From: Sulfurospirillum sp. 1612
Lineage (GTDB): Bacteria > Campylobacterota > Campylobacteria > Campylobacterales > Sulfurospirillaceae
Direction of reading: 5' to 3'
DNA length: 64,000 nt
Assembly: GCF_036556685.1 (NCBI RefSeq)
Contig: NZ_CP140614.1
Coordinates: 744,001 to 808,000 of the forward strand
In this document: positions 8,570 to 45,984 of the stretch, piece after piece
Layout: every line of letters starts with the position of its first letter
How positions within the stretch are numbered: the first letter of the stretch is position 1
Translations under genes and position numbers: made by a program
The notes under the pieces: generated by a model
Seen by the model: only the letters and a program-made list of their open reading frames with translations
Told to the model about the DNA's origin: nothing
The model's database searches: none

Positions 8570-9901
8570 CTAGCCATCATTGATGGTTGAGAGCAACTCT
8601 TCATTATCTTGTGTTTTGAGCATTTTAGAGTATAAAAATTTGAGTGCTTCGATATCTTCCATTTGAGAAATGGCAGATCGAATCGCCCAGATTTTTTGTA
8701 AGGTTTCAGGTTCCACGAGAATTTCTTCTTTTCGAGTGGCTGATTTCATGATATTGATAGCCGGATAAATTCTACGATCAGAGATGTTACGATCCAAGAC
8801 AATCTCACTGTTACCGGTTCCTTTAAACTCTTCAAAAATAACTTCATCCATACGACTACCGGTCTCAATCAGTGCGGTTGAGATGATGGTTAAACTGCCG
8901 CCAAATTCAATATTTCTGGCCGCTCCGAAAAATCGTTTTGGTTTGTGTAGTGCATTGGCATCCACACCACCGCTCAGGATTTTCCCACTTGATGGGGTGA
9001 CTGTATTATAAGCGCGTGCAAGTCGTGTGATGGAGTCTAATAAAATCACAACGTCTTTGCCCATTTCGACGCGTCTTTTTGCTTTTTCGATGACAAGATT
9101 AGCCACTCTGACATGATTAGACGCTGGCATATCAAAGGTAGAGCTATAAACTTCACCATTGACGCTACGTTGCATATCGGTTACTTCCTCAGGGCGCTCA
9201 TCGACAAGAAGTACAATGAGTTCAATCTCAGGATGATTAAAAGAGATGCCATTGGCGAGCTCTTTCATCAATTCGGTTTTACCGCTTCTTGGAGGAGCAA
9301 CAATCAAACCCCGTTGTCCTTTTCCGATTGGAGTGAAAAGGTCCAACACTCTACCGGTGATTTTCATGCTGTTGTATTCCATTTTGATGCGTTCTGTTGG
9401 ATAGACGGGCGTTAAATTTTCAAACAGTGGTCTTTTTCTGCTATCTTGCATCGGTAGATAATTAATCGCTTCTATTTTTAAAAGTGCATAATAGCGTTCT
9501 TGATCTTTAGGTTGTCTCACTTGTCCGGTCACGATGTCACCATTACGCAGGGCGAATTTTTTGACTTGTGTAGCACTCACATAGGCATCATTGGCACTGT
9601 CGCTAAAATTTGTATCGGTGGTTCGTAAAAAGCCATATCCTTCATGAGTGATTTCTAAGATTCCTGTAAAAAGGATAAAGCCCCCTTGGTTGACTTGAGA
9701 TTTCAAAATCTCAAACATTAAATCTTGTCGTTTGAGTTCATTGGGGTTTTCAACCTTGAGTTCGGTTGCAATTTCTACGAGCTTATCCAGTTGCATACTT
9801 CTTAAATTTTCTATCTTATATCCCTCTACTGGTACATGAGTTCTTGATTTGCGATAATTGCCTTTTGGTTTCTGGTTATCTGAGGAAGAATTCGTATTCA
9901 T
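8570..9901 (-). CDS. rho: Transcription termination factor Rho
   Basis: Hexameric RNA helicase that ends transcription. The 443-residue protein has an N-terminal helical domain, a cold-shock-like RNA-binding domain ([20 protein letters not shown]), Walker [11 protein letters not shown], Walker [11 protein letters not shown], and the Q- and R-loops ([31 protein letters not shown]). The ATG at 9901 has GAAGG five bases upstream; an in-frame ATG at 9943 would add 14 residues without a ribosome site. Only a short Asn/Lys-rich N-terminal extension is present. Confidence 0.97.
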
Positions 9902-40084: not shown

Positions 40085-40823
40085 GACTGAGAGCACCAAT
40101 AATAATCAAAATAAAATACAACTAATATATATATTTCCCAATCTTTTTACTGCGGCGAGTATTTTCGTCGGAGTTATTAGTGTGCTGGCTTCTGCTAAGG
40201 GTGATTTTGATAAAGCCGCTCTTTATATTTTACTCTCTTTGATATTTGATGGACTTGATGGGCGTGTTGCCCGTCTTACCAATACCTCAAGTAAATTTGG
40301 TGCTGAGTTTGACTCGCTAGCCGATATTGTGGCTTTTGGTGTCGCACCTGCGATGTTGTTTTATTATAGCATCGGGATTCATTATGGTAAAGTTGGCTCT
40401 TTACTGACCGCGATGTTTGTAGTCTTTGGCGCAATTCGTCTGGCGCGATTTAATGTCATGATAGGAATCAATGAGCCTTCGGTCTTTATCGGTGTTCCGA
40501 TTCCAACTGCGGCTGTTGTGCTGACTATGTGGATTTTAGTGCATGAAAAATATGTTTTTTTCAAGGATTACAATATCGCTATTTTGGTGGGCATTGCGAT
40601 GCTTGCCCTGTTGATGGTGAGTAATTTTCGATATCCAAGCTTTAAGAAAATCAATCTGAGAAAACCCAATTTTATCAAAGTGCTGGTCTATCTTGTGATG
40701 GTGTTTTCGTTGGTTTATATTTATCCAGTCGAAAGTATTACGATTATTGTTACCGCTTATCTCTTTTATGGGGTGGTACGAGCGATTTATAATTTTACAA
40801 TTGCAAAATATAGAAAAAATTAG
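40077..40823 (+). CDS. pssA: CDP-diacylglycerol--serine O-phosphatidyltransferase
   Basis: Inner-membrane enzyme making phosphatidylserine from CDP-diacylglycerol and serine. The 248 residues have about eight membrane helices and the CDP-alcohol phosphotransferase motif DGLDGRVARLT...GAEFDSLAD with all acidic residues. The ATG at 40077 lies inside the end of the Psd-like gene. The 3' end appears to contain the promoter of the downstream leuA unit. Confidence 0.93.
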   Translation: MSETESTNNNQNKIQLIYIFPNLFTAASIFVGVISVLASAKGDFDKAALYILLSLIFDGLDGRVARLTNTSSKFGAEFDSLADIVAFGVAPAMLFYYSIGIHYGKVGSLLTAMFVVFGAIRLARFNVMIGINEPSVFIGVPIPTAAVVLTMWILVHEKYVFFKDYNIAILVGIAMLALLMVSNFRYPSFKKINLRKPNFIKVLVYLVMVFSLVYIYPVESITIIVTAYLFYGVVRAIYNFTIAKYRKN

Positions 40824-40829
40824 TATAAT
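40801..40829 (+). promoter_or_regulatory. Putative sigma70 promoter for the leader peptide and leuA
   Basis: TTGCAA (40801-40806), a 17-base spacer and perfect TATAAT (40824-40829), placed across the pssA stop codon. The predicted RNA start near 40836 is about 12 bases before the ribosome site of the leader frame. Confidence 0.6.
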
Positions 40830-40859
40830 GAATGACAAATTTAATTTAAAGGAGACAGA

Positions 40860-40955
40860 GTGAACGGTGTAGACATCGGAATTACAAAATCATTAAAATT
40901 TTTACCAAAGATAGAAATCAAAAACGCCCTCCTGCAAAACCTCCTCAGCCTCTAA
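40860..40955 (+). CDS. Candidate leucine-rich leader peptide of leuA
   Basis: A 31-codon frame starts with GTG five bases after AAAGGAG (40848-40854), itself just downstream of a promoter-like TTGCAA-17-TATAAT. The last eight codons before TAA encode Leu-Leu-Gln-Asn-Leu-Leu-Ser-Leu: five leucines, all as CTC or CTG. The stop lies 53 bases before leuA, the first enzyme of leucine synthesis. This is the layout of an amino-acid-sensing leader, although no terminator hairpin is visible between it and leuA. I know of no described homologue. Confidence 0.6.
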   Translation: MNGVDIGITKSLKFLPKIEIKNALLQNLLSL

Positions 40956-41008
40956 TTATTACTTTACTTTACAACCCATAACCAACAAAAAAATTAAGGA
41001 AAATTAAA

Positions 41009-42550
41009 ATGAAAGATATAATAATATTTGATACAACATTACGAGATGGTGAACAAAGCCCCGGTGCTTCTATGAATACAGAAGAGAAGATTCAAATTGC
41101 ATTGCAATTAGAAAAATTGGGTGTTGATGTCATCGAAGCAGGTTTTGCAGCAGCGAGTCCTGGCGATTTTGGTGCGATTAAAAGAATCAGTGAACAAGTG
41201 AAAAATTCGACTGTTTGCTCATTAGCAAGAGCCTTAGATGGTGATATAAAAGCAGCCGCTCATGCCATTGCAAATGCGAACAAGCAAAGGATTCATACCT
41301 TTATCGCAACCAGTCCAATTCATATGGAATACAAATTAAAAATGACACCCCAAGAGGTCATCAAAAGAGCAGTGGATTCTGTGCGTTATGCCAAAACATT
41401 CTGTGATGATGTCGAATTTAGCTGTGAAGATGCCGGACGGAGTGATATTGGCTTTTTGAAAGAGATATTAGATGCTGTGATTGAAGCCGGAGCGACGACA
41501 TTAAATATCCCAGATACCGTTGGATATCGATTGCCTCAAGAGATGGGCGCTATCATCAAAACATTACAAGAGAGTGTAAAAGAGCGTGCCATTCTTTCGG
41601 TGCATTGTCATAATGATTTGGGTTTGGCGGTGGCTAACTCTATTGAATCCATCGAAAATGGTGCAAGACAGATTGAGTGTACTATCAATGGACTTGGTGA
41701 GCGTGCCGGAAATGCGGCTTTGGAAGAGATTGTGATGACATTAAAAACAAGAAAAGATGTTTTTTCTGATTATCATACCAATATCAATATTAAAGAGATT
41801 TATCCATCAAGTAAGTTGGTGTCAACGATTACGGGTATTGAGCCACAACCAAATAAGGCAATTGTCGGTAAAAATGCTTTTGCTCATGAGAGTGGTATCC
41901 ATCAAGATGGCGTCTTGAAATATGCACAAACGTATGAAATTATGAATGCCAAAGATATCGGTTTGGATAACAATTCACTTGTCATGGGTAAACACTCAGG
42001 ACGTCACGCCTTTAAAGATAAATTGTGCAGTTTAGGCTATAGTTTAAGCGATGAAGAGGTCAATATCGCTTTTGATAAATTTAAAGTATTAGCAGATTCA
42101 AAAAAAGAGATTTTTGATGATGATATTCGAGCATTGGTATCGGCTGAGATTATTAAAATCTCTGAAGTATTTGAATTGGTTACCTTGCAACTTTCTGATT
42201 GTAACCCAGGAGGTGTACCTAGTGCTGCTGTGACGATTCGACATGATGGCAAAGAGATTACCGATGCTGCGATTGGTAATGGTACGATGGATGCCATATT
42301 TAAAGTCATTGACCGCGTTTGTGGAGCTGAGGGACGCTTGAAAGAGTATAAAGTTGATTCTGTTACGCAAGGCAAGGATGCGCTTGCCAGAGTGATTGTG
42401 AAGGTCGTATTTGAGGAAGGAAAACCTGCCATCTTAGGTCATGGATTAAGCGTTGATACGATGCAAGCAACGGCGAAAGCTTATATTGGTGCCTTAAATA
42501 GTTATATTTCTATGAAAGAAGATTTGAGATCTCTTACTAAAGGGATTTAA
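41009..42550 (+). CDS. leuA: 2-isopropylmalate synthase
   Basis: First committed enzyme of leucine biosynthesis, condensing acetyl-CoA with 2-oxoisovalerate. The 513 residues have the catalytic [16 protein letters not shown], the metal site [13 protein letters not shown], the [13 protein letters not shown] signature and a C-terminal leucine-binding regulatory domain (about 390-513, with [10 protein letters not shown]). Ribosome site AAGGAAA is moderate. The upstream leucine-rich frame suggests regulation beyond feedback inhibition. Confidence 0.96.
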
Positions 42551-42556
42551 TTTTTT

Positions 42557-42585
42557 GTGATCTTGCATGTCCTGTGCAAGATCAC
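42557..42585 (+). terminator. Strong hairpin after leuA
   Basis: GTGATCTTGCA (42557-42567) pairs perfectly with TGCAAGATCAC (42575-42585) over a seven-base loop; GAAATTGTTTTA follows on the plus strand. It overlaps the stop of the converging GGDEF-EAL gene, so it may end both transcripts. Confidence 0.7.
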
Positions 42586-45080
42586 GAAATTGTTTTAATC
42601 AATGCGATTAATGCTTCTCGTGTCTTTGGCTCTGAGTAGAAATAACCTTGTCCCTCATCCACTCCGAGATTTCTCAATATATCTTCTTGTGCTTTAGTCT
42701 CAATTCCCTCCGCGACTGTTTTATATCCCAAACTTCTAGAAATCGCAATGGTCGCTTTGACGATATTAATGTCACTGGCATCAATAGAAATATTATCAAC
42801 AAAAGTTTTATCTATTTTCAATACTTCAATCGGCAAATTTTTGAGATAAGCCATCGAGGCGTATCCCGTACCAAAATCATCGAGGACAATTTGGAATCCT
42901 TCCTCTCTCATTTGTTGTAACGAGGTGATATTTTCATCAATATCATACATAATGTGCGTCTCTGTTACTTCGATACCGATGTCGGTTGCCTTCACATGGC
43001 ATGCGTCCATGATAGATTGAAAATCCCGCAAAAGAGTTTTATTGACCAGTTGTGAGGCCGATACGTTGACGGATATATTTTCTAAATAGGGGTACTGTTG
43101 CTTGATAATAGTAAAGTCTTCACATGCTTTGCGAAACACAAAGTTTCCAATTTCATGGATGAGACTCAAATCTTCTGCAATGGGTATAAAATAATCCGGA
43201 GGGATTTGTCCTAATTTTGGATGATTCCACCGAATCAACGCCTCAAGTGAGATGAGTTTTTTGCTTTTGAGGTTGTATTTTGGTTGATACACGACATAAA
43301 ATTCGTGATTTTTCAGTGCGGTTGCTAGGGCTTGTTCAATTTGCCATTTTTGTTGTATTCTATCTGAAAGTTCTTTGTTGAAGACCATATAAGAATTTTT
43401 CCCATGTTCTTTGACTTGGTTGAGTGCAATATCTGCTTGTTTGATTAAAGTAGCGGTATCTTTGCGCCCATCGACACACGTGGCAATTCCGATGCTAATA
43501 CTGATGCGCGATTTGAAGTTGTCGATAATAATCAAATCTTTAAAGAGATTCAAAATATCATGAGCGATGCGAATACTCTCATCGTCTTTATCCAAAGATA
43601 AAATTGCAAACTCATCTCCTCCGATACGAAAGACACTATTGTCTTTTTTGGTATAGGCGCATAACATGTGGGCGATTTTCTTCAAAATCTCATCACCCGT
43701 TTCATGACCAATCGCATCATTAATCGTCTTAAATCCATCAATATCGATAAAAAGTAGCGATAGAATGTTGTGATTGAGGTCATTTTTCATATTAAATAAC
43801 ATATTTTTAAGGCACAAACGATTAGGCAAGGCGGTGAGACTATCATGATAGGCTAAGTATTCCATTTTCTCTTTTTGGTGCACATAATCAGTAACATCGA
43901 GTTTGATAGCTAAGTATCCGGTTAGTTTGTTATTGGTCATCATTGGCGTAATGGAGGATTTTTCGTAATATATTTCACCATTTTTTTTCTTATTGATAAA
44001 TTCTCCTGACCATTTTCTACCGCTGGCTAATACCCGATTGATTTCATCATAAAAATCTTGAGAGAGTTGTTCGGAGCGTAATATATTTGGATTTTTTCCA
44101 ATCACCTCGTCGTAACGGTATCCAGATGTCTTGACAGAGGCATCATTAACATAAGTGATGAGGCGGTCTTTGTCTGTGATGACGATAGAATCATCACTAT
44201 TTTCAACGGCATATTTAAAAGCGAGCAATTCTTTTTTAATTTGTAGCGTTCTAATATAGGTAAAAAATAGCAATAAAATAAGAAAAACAGAGAGTGTAAA
44301 AATAATATATAAAATCCTATTTTGATGATACACAAGCCTATTATGCTCTTGATTAAATTTTGTATTTAGCGTCGTAATGTCATTCTCTAGCGGAATCAAA
44401 GCTGCTTTTTTTCTCAATCCATCGACATAGGTAATTTTTTCCAATGTTGTTTTCATTTGTTCCAATAATTGAATCGCATTTGGATGGGGTATGTCTCTAT
44501 CTTTTAACATCGCAAGGCTTTGATCAATCTGGTTTTTATTGATATCTAGATTTAAATACGTTTCGATTAAACTATACAAGGATGCATCAATGTGTGTATG
44601 AATCTGTTTGATTTCACTAAGCGTACCTTTGGTGCGCGCTTTTATATCTCGTGTATTATTGATGATATAAAGCAGGGTATATAAACTAAAAGCACTATAA
44701 GATTTGTATTTTTCGATGATTTCCTTTTTGGTGGAAAAGTCTGTTTTGATTTTCTCAAGATAGGGATCGTATCCTCTTTTCTTGAGGGCATTTTTCAAGA
44801 ATTGGAGATTGTGTGTAAAATCAGAAATTTTTGTTTCTATTTTGTCATAATTAATAACAATTTTACGATTCAGAAAAAAGTTGTCAAAATCTTTATTGAT
44901 GAGCTCCAAACTGTGGATGGAATTGCTAATACTTATATAGCTCTTCTCTTTTTTATCAATCGCATTAATTTCATAAAAAATATATAAAGAGAGACCGATG
45001 AGTGCGAGAATGATTAAGATAATTTGATCTGCATAATGCCTCAGATTTTTGAATTTTAAAGATATATTATTGGACATCAT
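42582..45080 (-). CDS. Membrane-bound PAS-GGDEF-EAL protein (cyclic di-GMP turnover)
   Basis: Two membrane helices (about 20-36 and 255-276) enclose a 218-residue periplasmic sensor domain rich in helices. They are followed by a PAS domain (about 287-400), a GGDEF domain with intact RIGGDEF and an EAL domain with LEALIRW, NVSASQ and DDFGTGYAS. Both synthesis and hydrolysis of c-di-GMP are thus possible. The ATG at 45080 has GGGGAAG upstream; the stop of the cytochrome c peroxidase overlaps this start, indicating translation coupling. Confidence 0.9.
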   Translation of the reverse strand: MMSNNISLKFKNLRHYADQIILIILALIGLSLYIFYEINAIDKKEKSYISISNSIHSLELINKDFDNFFLNRKIVINYDKIETKISDFTHNLQFLKNALKKRGYDPYLEKIKTDFSTKKEIIEKYKSYSAFSLYTLLYIINNTRDIKARTKGTLSEIKQIHTHIDASLYSLIETYLNLDINKNQIDQSLAMLKDRDIPHPNAIQLLEQMKTTLEKITYVDGLRKKAALIPLENDITTLNTKFNQEHNRLVYHQNRILYIIFTLSVFLILLLFFTYIRTLQIKKELLAFKYAVENSDDSIVITDKDRLITYVNDASVKTSGYRYDEVIGKNPNILRSEQLSQDFYDEINRVLASGRKWSGEFINKKKNGEIYYEKSSITPMMTNNKLTGYLAIKLDVTDYVHQKEKMEYLAYHDSLTALPNRLCLKNMLFNMKNDLNHNILSLLFIDIDGFKTINDAIGHETGDEILKKIAHMLCAYTKKDNSVFRIGGDEFAILSLDKDDESIRIAHDILNLFKDLIIIDNFKSRISISIGIATCVDGRKDTATLIKQADIALNQVKEHGKNSYMVFNKELSDRIQQKWQIEQALATALKNHEFYVVYQPKYNLKSKKLISLEALIRWNHPKLGQIPPDYFIPIAEDLSLIHEIGNFVFRKACEDFTIIKQQYPYLENISVNVSASQLVNKTLLRDFQSIMDACHVKATDIGIEVTETHIMYDIDENITSLQQMREEGFQIVLDDFGTGYASMAYLKNLPIEVLKIDKTFVDNISIDASDINIVKATIAISRSLGYKTVAEGIETKAQEDILRNLGVDEGQGYFYSEPKTREALIALIKTIS

Positions 45081-45984
45081 GAGGCACTTCCCCATCAAGA
45101 GCATGTAAAAAATCTACGATATCATCGATATCTTGACGATTTCCGTATGCATCAAGTTGGTATTGGAGCATAAATTGCACCACGTCTCTTAAACTATAAA
45201 ACCGCCCATCGTGCATATAAGGCGCTGTTTTTGATATATTTCTAAGCGTGGGTACTTTGTAAAAATATTTATCATGAGGGTCTTTTGTGATGTTGTATCG
45301 GCCAAGATAATCACTTAAAAGTGGTTTTATTTCACCAAATTTAGCAAATAAATTGCCCCCTAAATTCACCCCATTATGACAAATAATACAGCCTTTGGAT
45401 TGAAACAGAAAATATCCTCTTTTTTGAGAAGCACTCAAAGCCGTATCATCACCACGCAAATATTTATCAAAAGGGGCATTGGGGGTGTTGAGTGTTTTGA
45501 TGTATGCGGCGATGGCATTGCTGATATATTTGGGTTTGACGCGATCATGATAGATGGCTTCAAAGCGTTTTTTGTAGGCGGTATGATTGAGCTTTTTAGC
45601 CAAATCTGAGATATTACTTTGCATGGTATCATTCTGTTCTATCATGAGGGTGATGGCCTCTTCAAGTGTCGATGCGCGTCCATCATAAAATTGTGTAAAA
45701 TTGTACTTTGAATTGTAAAGTGTCGGCGTGTTGATTGGGTTGGTCTTATTGTCTGAGTAGGGAGAATTTCTGCGATTGTCTGCTGTGGCATATTGATGTC
45801 GATGACAACTAGCACAAGAAATTTGATTATTTTTTGATAGACTTTGGTCAAAAAAAAGTTGTTTTCCTAAGCGTATTTTTTGTGCATTATCGATGGTGTT
45901 ATTTCGTGGTATTGGCGTAATTGGTTGTGCTAAAAGCACCAGGTTGAAACATGTAAAATATATCAAAATGACAACGTAATTCAT
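45067..45984 (-). CDS. Di-haem cytochrome c peroxidase (CcpA/MauG family)
   Basis: A signal peptide (MNYVVILIYFTCFNLVLLAQ) and two haem sites, CASCH (57-61) and CIICH (199-203), define a periplasmic bacterial di-haem peroxidase that reduces hydrogen peroxide with electrons from cytochrome c. The 305 residues fit the family. Typical motifs TPTLYN and APYMHDGRF are present. It overlaps the GGDEF-EAL gene by 14 bases in one operon. Confidence 0.93.
   Translation of the reverse strand: MNYVVILIYFTCFNLVLLAQPITPIPRNNTIDNAQKIRLGKQLFFDQSLSKNNQISCASCHRHQYATADNRRNSPYSDNKTNPINTPTLYNSKYNFTQFYDGRASTLEEAITLMIEQNDTMQSNISDLAKKLNHTAYKKRFEAIYHDRVKPKYISNAIAAYIKTLNTPNAPFDKYLRGDDTALSASQKRGYFLFQSKGCIICHNGVNLGGNLFAKFGEIKPLLSDYLGRYNITKDPHDKYFYKVPTLRNISKTAPYMHDGRFYSLRDVVQFMLQYQLDAYGNRQDIDDIVDFLHALDGEVPHDVQ

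Follow-up and report, generated by a model that had tools for sequence, protein, structure and literature searches.

Leucine leader peptides and the leuA locus

LeuL is already known as a leader: it has been described upstream of leuA in Campylobacter jejuni and other Epsilonproteobacteria, where it has stood as a predicted attenuator since 2013, and the 3' ends of its RNA in C. jejuni are reported to lie immediately past the leader's stop codon (Porcelli et al., 2013, PMC3847290). Translation of LeuL in C. jejuni is stated in a second source, according to which tBLASTn generally detects leuL only in C. jejuni or related Campylobacter (PMC11955535); the position-based search used here, as in PMC3847290, recovers such leaders more widely. 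The literature searched yielded no experimental LeuL mechanism and nothing on Rho acting on LeuL in Campylobacter. In the actinobacterial LEU element, a leucine-codon run is predicted to pair with the Shine-Dalgarno (SD) sequence of leuA, which sits at the base of a pseudoknot (PMC1262725).

The locus analysed here belongs to Sulfurospirillum sp. 1612 and lies within a stretch of 64,000 nucleotides (contig NZ_CP140614.1, positions 744,001 to 808,000; hereafter the window), in which the following features are numbered from the first letter.

8579-9817, minus strand: gene for the transcription terminator Rho (family profile match)
Upstream of the leader: pssA (TIGR00473)
40801-40829, plus strand: probable leader promoter TTGCAA-17-TATAAT, at the end of pssA (promoter-like site search)
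40850-40854, plus strand: AGGAG, the leader SD and 5' arm of the helix considered below (fold, covariation)
40860-40955, plus strand: LeuL leader ORF of 31 codons with a GTG start, MNGVDIGITKSLKFLPKIEIKNALLQNLLSL (ORF list; homologous leaders in relatives)
40902-40925, plus strand: conserved peptide LPKIEIKN, its end one residue away from the Leu-Leu pair (motif leaders)
40928-40933, plus strand: first CCTCCT, over the Leu codons CTC CTG; its CTCCT (40929-40933) is the 3' arm of the helix
40940-40945, plus strand: second CCTCCT, with which the leader SD can pair instead in the window fold; unconserved in the genus
40920-40997, plus strand: C-rich, G-poor tract, a candidate Rho-loading region (composition scan)
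40996-41000, plus strand: AAGGA, the leuA SD, of which the CCTCCT copies are not partners (fold, covariation)
41009-42550, plus strand: leuA, 2-isopropylmalate synthase (NCBIfam NF002086 and TIGR00973, both above cut-offs; relatives)

LeuL is characterized as a small ORF of 20-35 aa with its own ribosome site, lying 5' of leuA and carrying several C-terminal leucines encoded by CUN codons (PMC3847290), and the leader fits this description. Its leucines at codons 24, 25, 28, 29, and 31 are written CTC CTG CTC CTC CTC, and 53 nt separate the leader stop from the leuA start. The SD:Leu-codon helix and the LPKIEIKN motif are added here to the published LeuL account, as far as that account was available (PMC3847290). 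The likeness to the LEU element is that the leucine-codon run of the leader pairs with an SD box (PMC1262725); unlike in that element, where the box is that of leuA, the box in the window is the leader's own, and the window offers no support for a leucine run paired with the leuA SD. No Rfam family matched the window at the gathering score.

Promoter-like sites in the 700 bases scanned number four against 2.7 expected, which is weak evidence taken alone; an exact TATAAT lies within the 46 nt 5' of the leader SD in 33 of 58 relatives against 6.3 expected. Between leader and leuA the same hexamer occurs in 11 of 58 relatives (9.1 expected), so that a second promoter is no general feature there. 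A large convergent ORF on the minus strand (window 42582-45104) lies 3' of leuA, which therefore seems to be the last gene of its own transcript.

Pairing of the leader start with the first leucine codon pair

Relatives were assembled from 150 genomes, 145 of which gave a leuA-like match, with paralogues and fragments left out. The 119 leuA upstream regions examined (30 + 89 loci, G063 being counted twice) comprised 53 whose leader holds PKIE[ITV][KR]N and 66 others, 33 of which yielded no leader and 33 of which passed an automatic leader rule; 30 of the latter were used, L084, L087, and L106 being dropped for want of a Leu run. A further 36 leaders came from 61 loci of titled genome records after removal of identical ORFs and, having been found via LPKIEIKN itself, are invariant in the motif by construction. 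LPKIEIKN-like peptides are thus encoded by 89 leaders of the final collection and other peptides by 30; four of the 89, whose leuA start fell outside the retrieved stretch, were excluded from the spacer set of 115. Leader starts were chosen by SD-like sequence without use of pairing, and a set of 58 leaders was thinned to pairwise identity below 75%.

The sequence-only reading had pointed to two CCTCCT copies inside the leader frame, and a sequence search finds both at 40928-40933 and 40940-40945. Across both strands of the window, CCTCCT matches 15 times against 12.0 expected, which is chance level; within the leader, CTCCT arises in 17.5% of versions resampled with synonymous codons, and two CCTCCT copies arise in 0.04%. 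The duplex between the leader SD and the Leu-codon region is worth -7.9 kcal/mol in the window, a value equalled or bettered by 28.7% of synonymous versions, and the helix comprises a 5-bp core only, with the flanking bases (A and C) unpaired. The complementarity in the window alone is hardly more than chance and proves nothing. As a separate matter, the whole window leader folds no better than its shuffles (z=+1.00; 174 of 200 shuffles fold at least as well), which speaks against a stable leader fold as such.

The two copies fare differently among relatives. At the first (codons 24-25), CTCCT is conserved in 73 of 89 motif leaders and in all seven leaders of the window's genus in the set (an eighth member, G009, gave no leader by the automatic rule and stands outside this count). 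As for the second, 26 of 89 motif leaders have a further CTCCT downstream, and within the genus the window is the sole case out of seven; its absence from the six others led to its rejection as a conserved element. The earlier suggestion that the repeat is a by-product of CTC leucine codons accordingly suits the second copy, but not the first, which is conserved and covaries.

That covariation shows in the duplex energies. When the SD (16 nt before the start) was paired with the last 48 nt of its own ORF, the 58 leaders gave a mean of -10.27 kcal/mol, against -9.06 kcal/mol with swapped partners (z=-5.6, reached in 0 of 10000 permutations), and the observed mean was reached in 0 of 200 synonymous-codon permutations within each leader. 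With one leader per genus (27 genera, 100 draws) the median P lay below 0.001, and with one per family (15 families) it was 0.002 (5-95% range 0.000-0.046). The 30 leaders without the LPKIE motif show the excess by themselves (0 of 10000; 3 of 10000 for 19 representatives). Individual leaders can form long helices, such as the 11 bp between AGGAGGATAGA and TCTATCCTCCT in L074 and the 10 bp between AGGAGTGTAC and GTACACTTCT in L067; 12 of 58 relatives pair more weakly than the window, weak examples being L047, L049, L077, and L091.

The flanks of the core were compared in 48 distinct rows drawn from the 92 of 119 leaders that have AGGAG plus CTCCT or CTTCT, a selection that fixes the five core pairs and leaves only the flanking pairs to inform. 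The nucleotide immediately 3' of AGGAG pairs with the one immediately 5' of CTYCT in 32 of 48 rows (AU 20, UA 6, CG 2, GC 2, UG 2), and the two are unpaired in 16; their pairing and covariation score was reached in 0 of 500 shuffles, and the 38 unique flank combinations of the motif leaders gave P=0.003 in a separate test. Pair types, however, are no more numerous than expected from shuffling, their number being attained in 212 and 216 of 500 shuffles, and at the next two positions outward 30 and 31 of 48 rows lack a pair. These row counts use related sequences, which can exceed shuffles without structure; the 58-leader, per-genus, and per-family tests thin by identity, genus, and family.

The excess is confined to this combination of segments among those compared in the 58 leaders, none of seven other region pairs showing it: besides the four pairs involving the leuA SD or the spacer that are treated below, it is absent between the SD and ORF nt 4-39 (z=+0.6), between the SD and the 48 nt after the stop (z=+0.5), and between upstream sequence and the Leu region (z=-0.3), and ORFs of the window, taken as a baseline, give -5.20 with own and -5.41 with swapped partners. 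The proposed complementarity of CTCCT to the leader's AGGAG is thus borne out for the first copy, and a pairing between the two that covaries in Campylobacterota relatives is supported by sequence comparison. That many relatives appear to have kept the pairing by matched changes suggests a self-closing leucine sensor.

In E. coli, leuL and trpL likewise encode leader peptides whose control codons specify the amino acid made by the pathway. For the E. coli trp operon, the leader ribosome site has been reported to become occluded; in the K-12 trpL sequence (L231), the SD region forms its best duplex, of -9.1 kcal/mol, with nt 25-35, which cover the Trp codons. Leaders outside the present family may therefore also pair their control codons with their own ribosome site. 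In K-12 leuL (L229) the CTA control codons occupy nt 28-39 and the best SD duplex lies elsewhere, at nt 71-82. The literature searched, mostly at abstract level, gave no description of a covarying pairing between leucine control codons and their own ribosome site in Campylobacterota, and no sequestration of a leader's own ribosome site by control codons was recognised in the abstract beginnings searched.

An explanation that dispenses with the helix is a plain codon-starvation leader, in which CTC and CTG were chosen for minor tRNAs and the complementarity to AGGAG is accidental. Codon usage lends it some weight. Of the 89 motif leaders, 73 have CTC, 7 CTA, 5 CTT, and 4 CTG as the first Leu codon of the pair, and 74 have CTG and 15 CTA as the second; for the Leu within LPKIE, by contrast, 75 of the 89 use TTA or TTG. 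The possibility raised beforehand that relatives would use TTA at the pair was not realised, both codons being CTN in 89 of 89 and never TTA or TTG. Among nine tRNA loci typed of 39 found, tRNA-Leu genes with GAG, UAG, UAA, and CAA anticodons occur once each, and rare codons in C. jejuni LeuL are stated by Porcelli et al. (PMC3847290); chance, moreover, would suffice for the complementarity in the window alone. Against this, own pairs beat swapped pairs although swapping preserves codon preference, permuting the same codons within a leader destroys the effect, and the base preceding the Leu pair covaries. Nor is CTC rare: across 55 ORFs of the window, picked mechanically, it makes up 17% of the Leu codons, the rarest being CTG at 5.3%. 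Codon starvation is therefore disfavoured as the whole story and, so framed, unlikely, although codon-specific sensing may be part of it.

The helix might instead merely limit synthesis of the leader peptide after the first ribosome, with no role in the leucine response. Its action on the leader start and not on leuA accords with this; yet its arm consists of the leucine control codons themselves, and neither the N-terminal half of the ORF nor the region after the stop shows such pairing, which makes so restricted a role improbable.

Ribosome position and probable termination before leuA

Under the preferred reading of a self-closing leucine sensor, the state of the leader start would depend on where the ribosome stands. 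In computed folds, the probability that the window's leader SD is unpaired is 0.07 without a ribosome (0.05 in a longer piece), rising to 0.24 when a ribosome occupies the first of the Leu codons (0.34 in the longer piece) and to 0.60 when it stands further on (0.59); with a ribosome at the stop codon, the SD stays closed on the first copy, at 0.04 (0.11). Averaged over the 58 leaders, SD accessibility climbs from 0.28 to 0.41 when the footprint is placed on the Leu pair (p=5e-6), the gain being at least 0.3 in 13 of them, and shifted footprints give a mean of 0.30. The predicted ribosome-driven opening of the leader start is thus modest.

The output is probably premature transcription termination. 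Classical attenuation, with an intrinsic terminator and an antiterminator, would agree with the published C. jejuni LeuL model, which is one of termination/antitermination (PMC3847290), and with the spacers that contain a hairpin followed by a T-run, of which there are 15 among 115 where 4.3 would be expected. Eight of them (L132, L133, L134, L138, L139, L140, L146, and L158) belong to similar leaders from Campylobacteraceae metagenome-assembled genomes (MAGs) and carry a terminator-like GATGTTT...AAACATC hairpin and then a T-run. By the same rule, none was found in the other 100 spacers, and a hairpin and T-run search detected no intrinsic terminator in the window's leader region, unlike in E. 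coli leuL/trpL. Helices covarying between leader halves and spacer, as expected of an antiterminator, are also missing from the 58 leaders (z=-0.9 for ORF nt 4-39 and z=+1.6 for the Leu region), a test that an invariant helix would escape. Classical attenuation is accordingly quite unlikely. The single terminator-like site near the window's leader lies at 40600-40623, inside pssA.

Rho may serve in place of a hairpin. The Rho protein encoded in the window's genome scores 665.7 bits against a family cut-off of 509.45, and within 40920-40997, downstream of the putative stall site, the excess of C over G is matched by no more than 0.1% of 78-nt windows when both strands are counted. Leader-leuA spacers of the 58 leaders (window included) average 6.0% G and 17.2% C, with C exceeding G in 52 of 58, against 14.1% and 13.4% G and C exceeding G in 22 of 43 and 20 of 58 in two sets of control stretches. 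The regular C spacing used by one Rho-site predictor, a rule that is not a strict requirement for Rho, is absent for every start from 40895 to 40929, and 5.4% of the window positions sampled satisfy it. As the window's leader region has no detectable intrinsic terminator, carries a C-rich, G-poor tract, and is accompanied by a rho gene, we infer Rho as the terminating factor in this lineage. The G-poor spacer may alternatively do no more than keep the leuA start open: in the 58 leaders, swapped spacers pair better with the leuA SD than the native one does (z=+3.0).

Rho-dependent attenuation by leader peptides is exemplified by tnaC and speFL, where a stalled ribosome masks Rho loading. By analogy, the window has a leader ORF followed by a C-rich stretch without an intrinsic terminator, and a stalled ribosome would mask Rho loading in like manner; unlike in tnaC and speFL, the signal would be a shortage of leucyl-tRNA, and the part played by Rho is a putative one.

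Some spacers have further peculiarities. Those of L003, L012, and L035 are lengthened to 156, 229, and 160 nt, respectively, by similar sequence containing a second small ORF with ARN-type residues; in L012 and L035 this ORF stops close to the leuA start or runs into it. A recurring CCC-loop-GGGTA segment, possibly a hairpin or a promoter, is seen in the spacers of L063, L066, L067, and L074.

Translational attenuation at leuA, by which a stalled ribosome would release a leuA site otherwise sequestered by the copies, in the manner of the actinobacterial LEU element, is highly unlikely: TCCT:AGGA complementarity is present and leuA SD accessibility rises slightly with a footprint (0.48 to 0.56, p=6e-5, by 0.3 or more in 6 of the 58 leaders; 0.37 to 0.49-0.63 in the window), but either copy forms at most 0.21 expected base pairs with the leuA SD region in any folded state of the window, the leuA SD and Leu codons do not covary (z=+1.4, 58 leaders), and swapped spacers, as noted above, suit the leuA SD better than the native ones. 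Pairing of CCTCCT with the leuA ribosome site was rejected on the fold and the lack of covariation. The sequence-only reading, which had expected folding to show the copies paired with ribosome sites and a stalled ribosome to free one, consequently holds in computation for the leader SD, which pairs with the copies, is closed, and opens from 0.07 to 0.24-0.60, and is not borne out for leuA through these copies. A switch is thus supported for the leader and not for leuA. The accompanying preference for a translational switch rather than transcription attenuation finds no support either, because the helix acts on the leader, not on leuA, and because the ends reported for the C. jejuni leader RNAs directly follow the stop codon (PMC3847290).

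The LPKIEIKN peptide and a proposed self-closing attenuator

An LPKIEIKN-type peptide directly before the Leu-Leu pair is found in the window and in 88 other leaders from several Campylobacterota families. The Leu before the motif and the Leu pair after it, both outside the search pattern, are invariant in the 30 peptides aligned of the 53 that the pattern identified, and over the 53 leaders the LPKIEIKN codons are free to vary, with pS 0.82 and pN 0.02, the low pN stemming partly from motif selection. No further LPKIEIKN leader was found in the window's genome (next best E=0.184). As the motif ends one residue before the first control codon, it would sit in the exit tunnel during a stall there. 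It is a candidate arrest-type nascent peptide, and its probable role is to contribute, from inside the tunnel, to slowing the ribosome.

We lean, by a slight degree, towards regarding LeuL as an attenuator of leuA with a self-closing leader as the whole explanation. In the first step, for which the evidence is comparative, the first Leu-Leu codon pair is complementary to the leader's own SD, in a pairing that covaries across Campylobacterota relatives. In the second, for which the computed effects are modest, a ribosome on the Leu codons would block their pairing and leave the leader start open, and once it had terminated, the codons would close the leader start and prevent further loading. 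In the third, a shortage of leucyl-tRNA would cause a parked ribosome and those following it to cover the leader, so that transcription reaches leuA, and plentiful leucine would leave the leader empty and closed, so that transcription stops before leuA. The fourth step would be lineage-specific: the window's lineage would terminate by Rho on the bare C-rich, G-poor stretch, and the Campylobacteraceae MAG group would use a hairpin and T-run instead.

A bolder version, possible though doubtful, would give the Leu codon pair three roles, as reader of leucyl-tRNA, lock on its own ribosome site, and start of the Rho tract, with LPKIEIKN tuning the stall; this arrangement would extend across much of Campylobacterota, the terminator having been exchanged between lineages and the lock kept. 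If true, it would constitute a self-gating, nascent-chain-assisted Rho attenuator.

The covarying helix between the control codons and their own SD is a precise, testable part of the proposal: it should be disrupted by a small number of synonymous substitutions and re-formed by compensating ones. If this helix governs the leucine response, the Campylobacterota leader would represent an attenuator that works without a terminator-antiterminator RNA switch and would unite coding, sensing, and structural roles in one codon pair.
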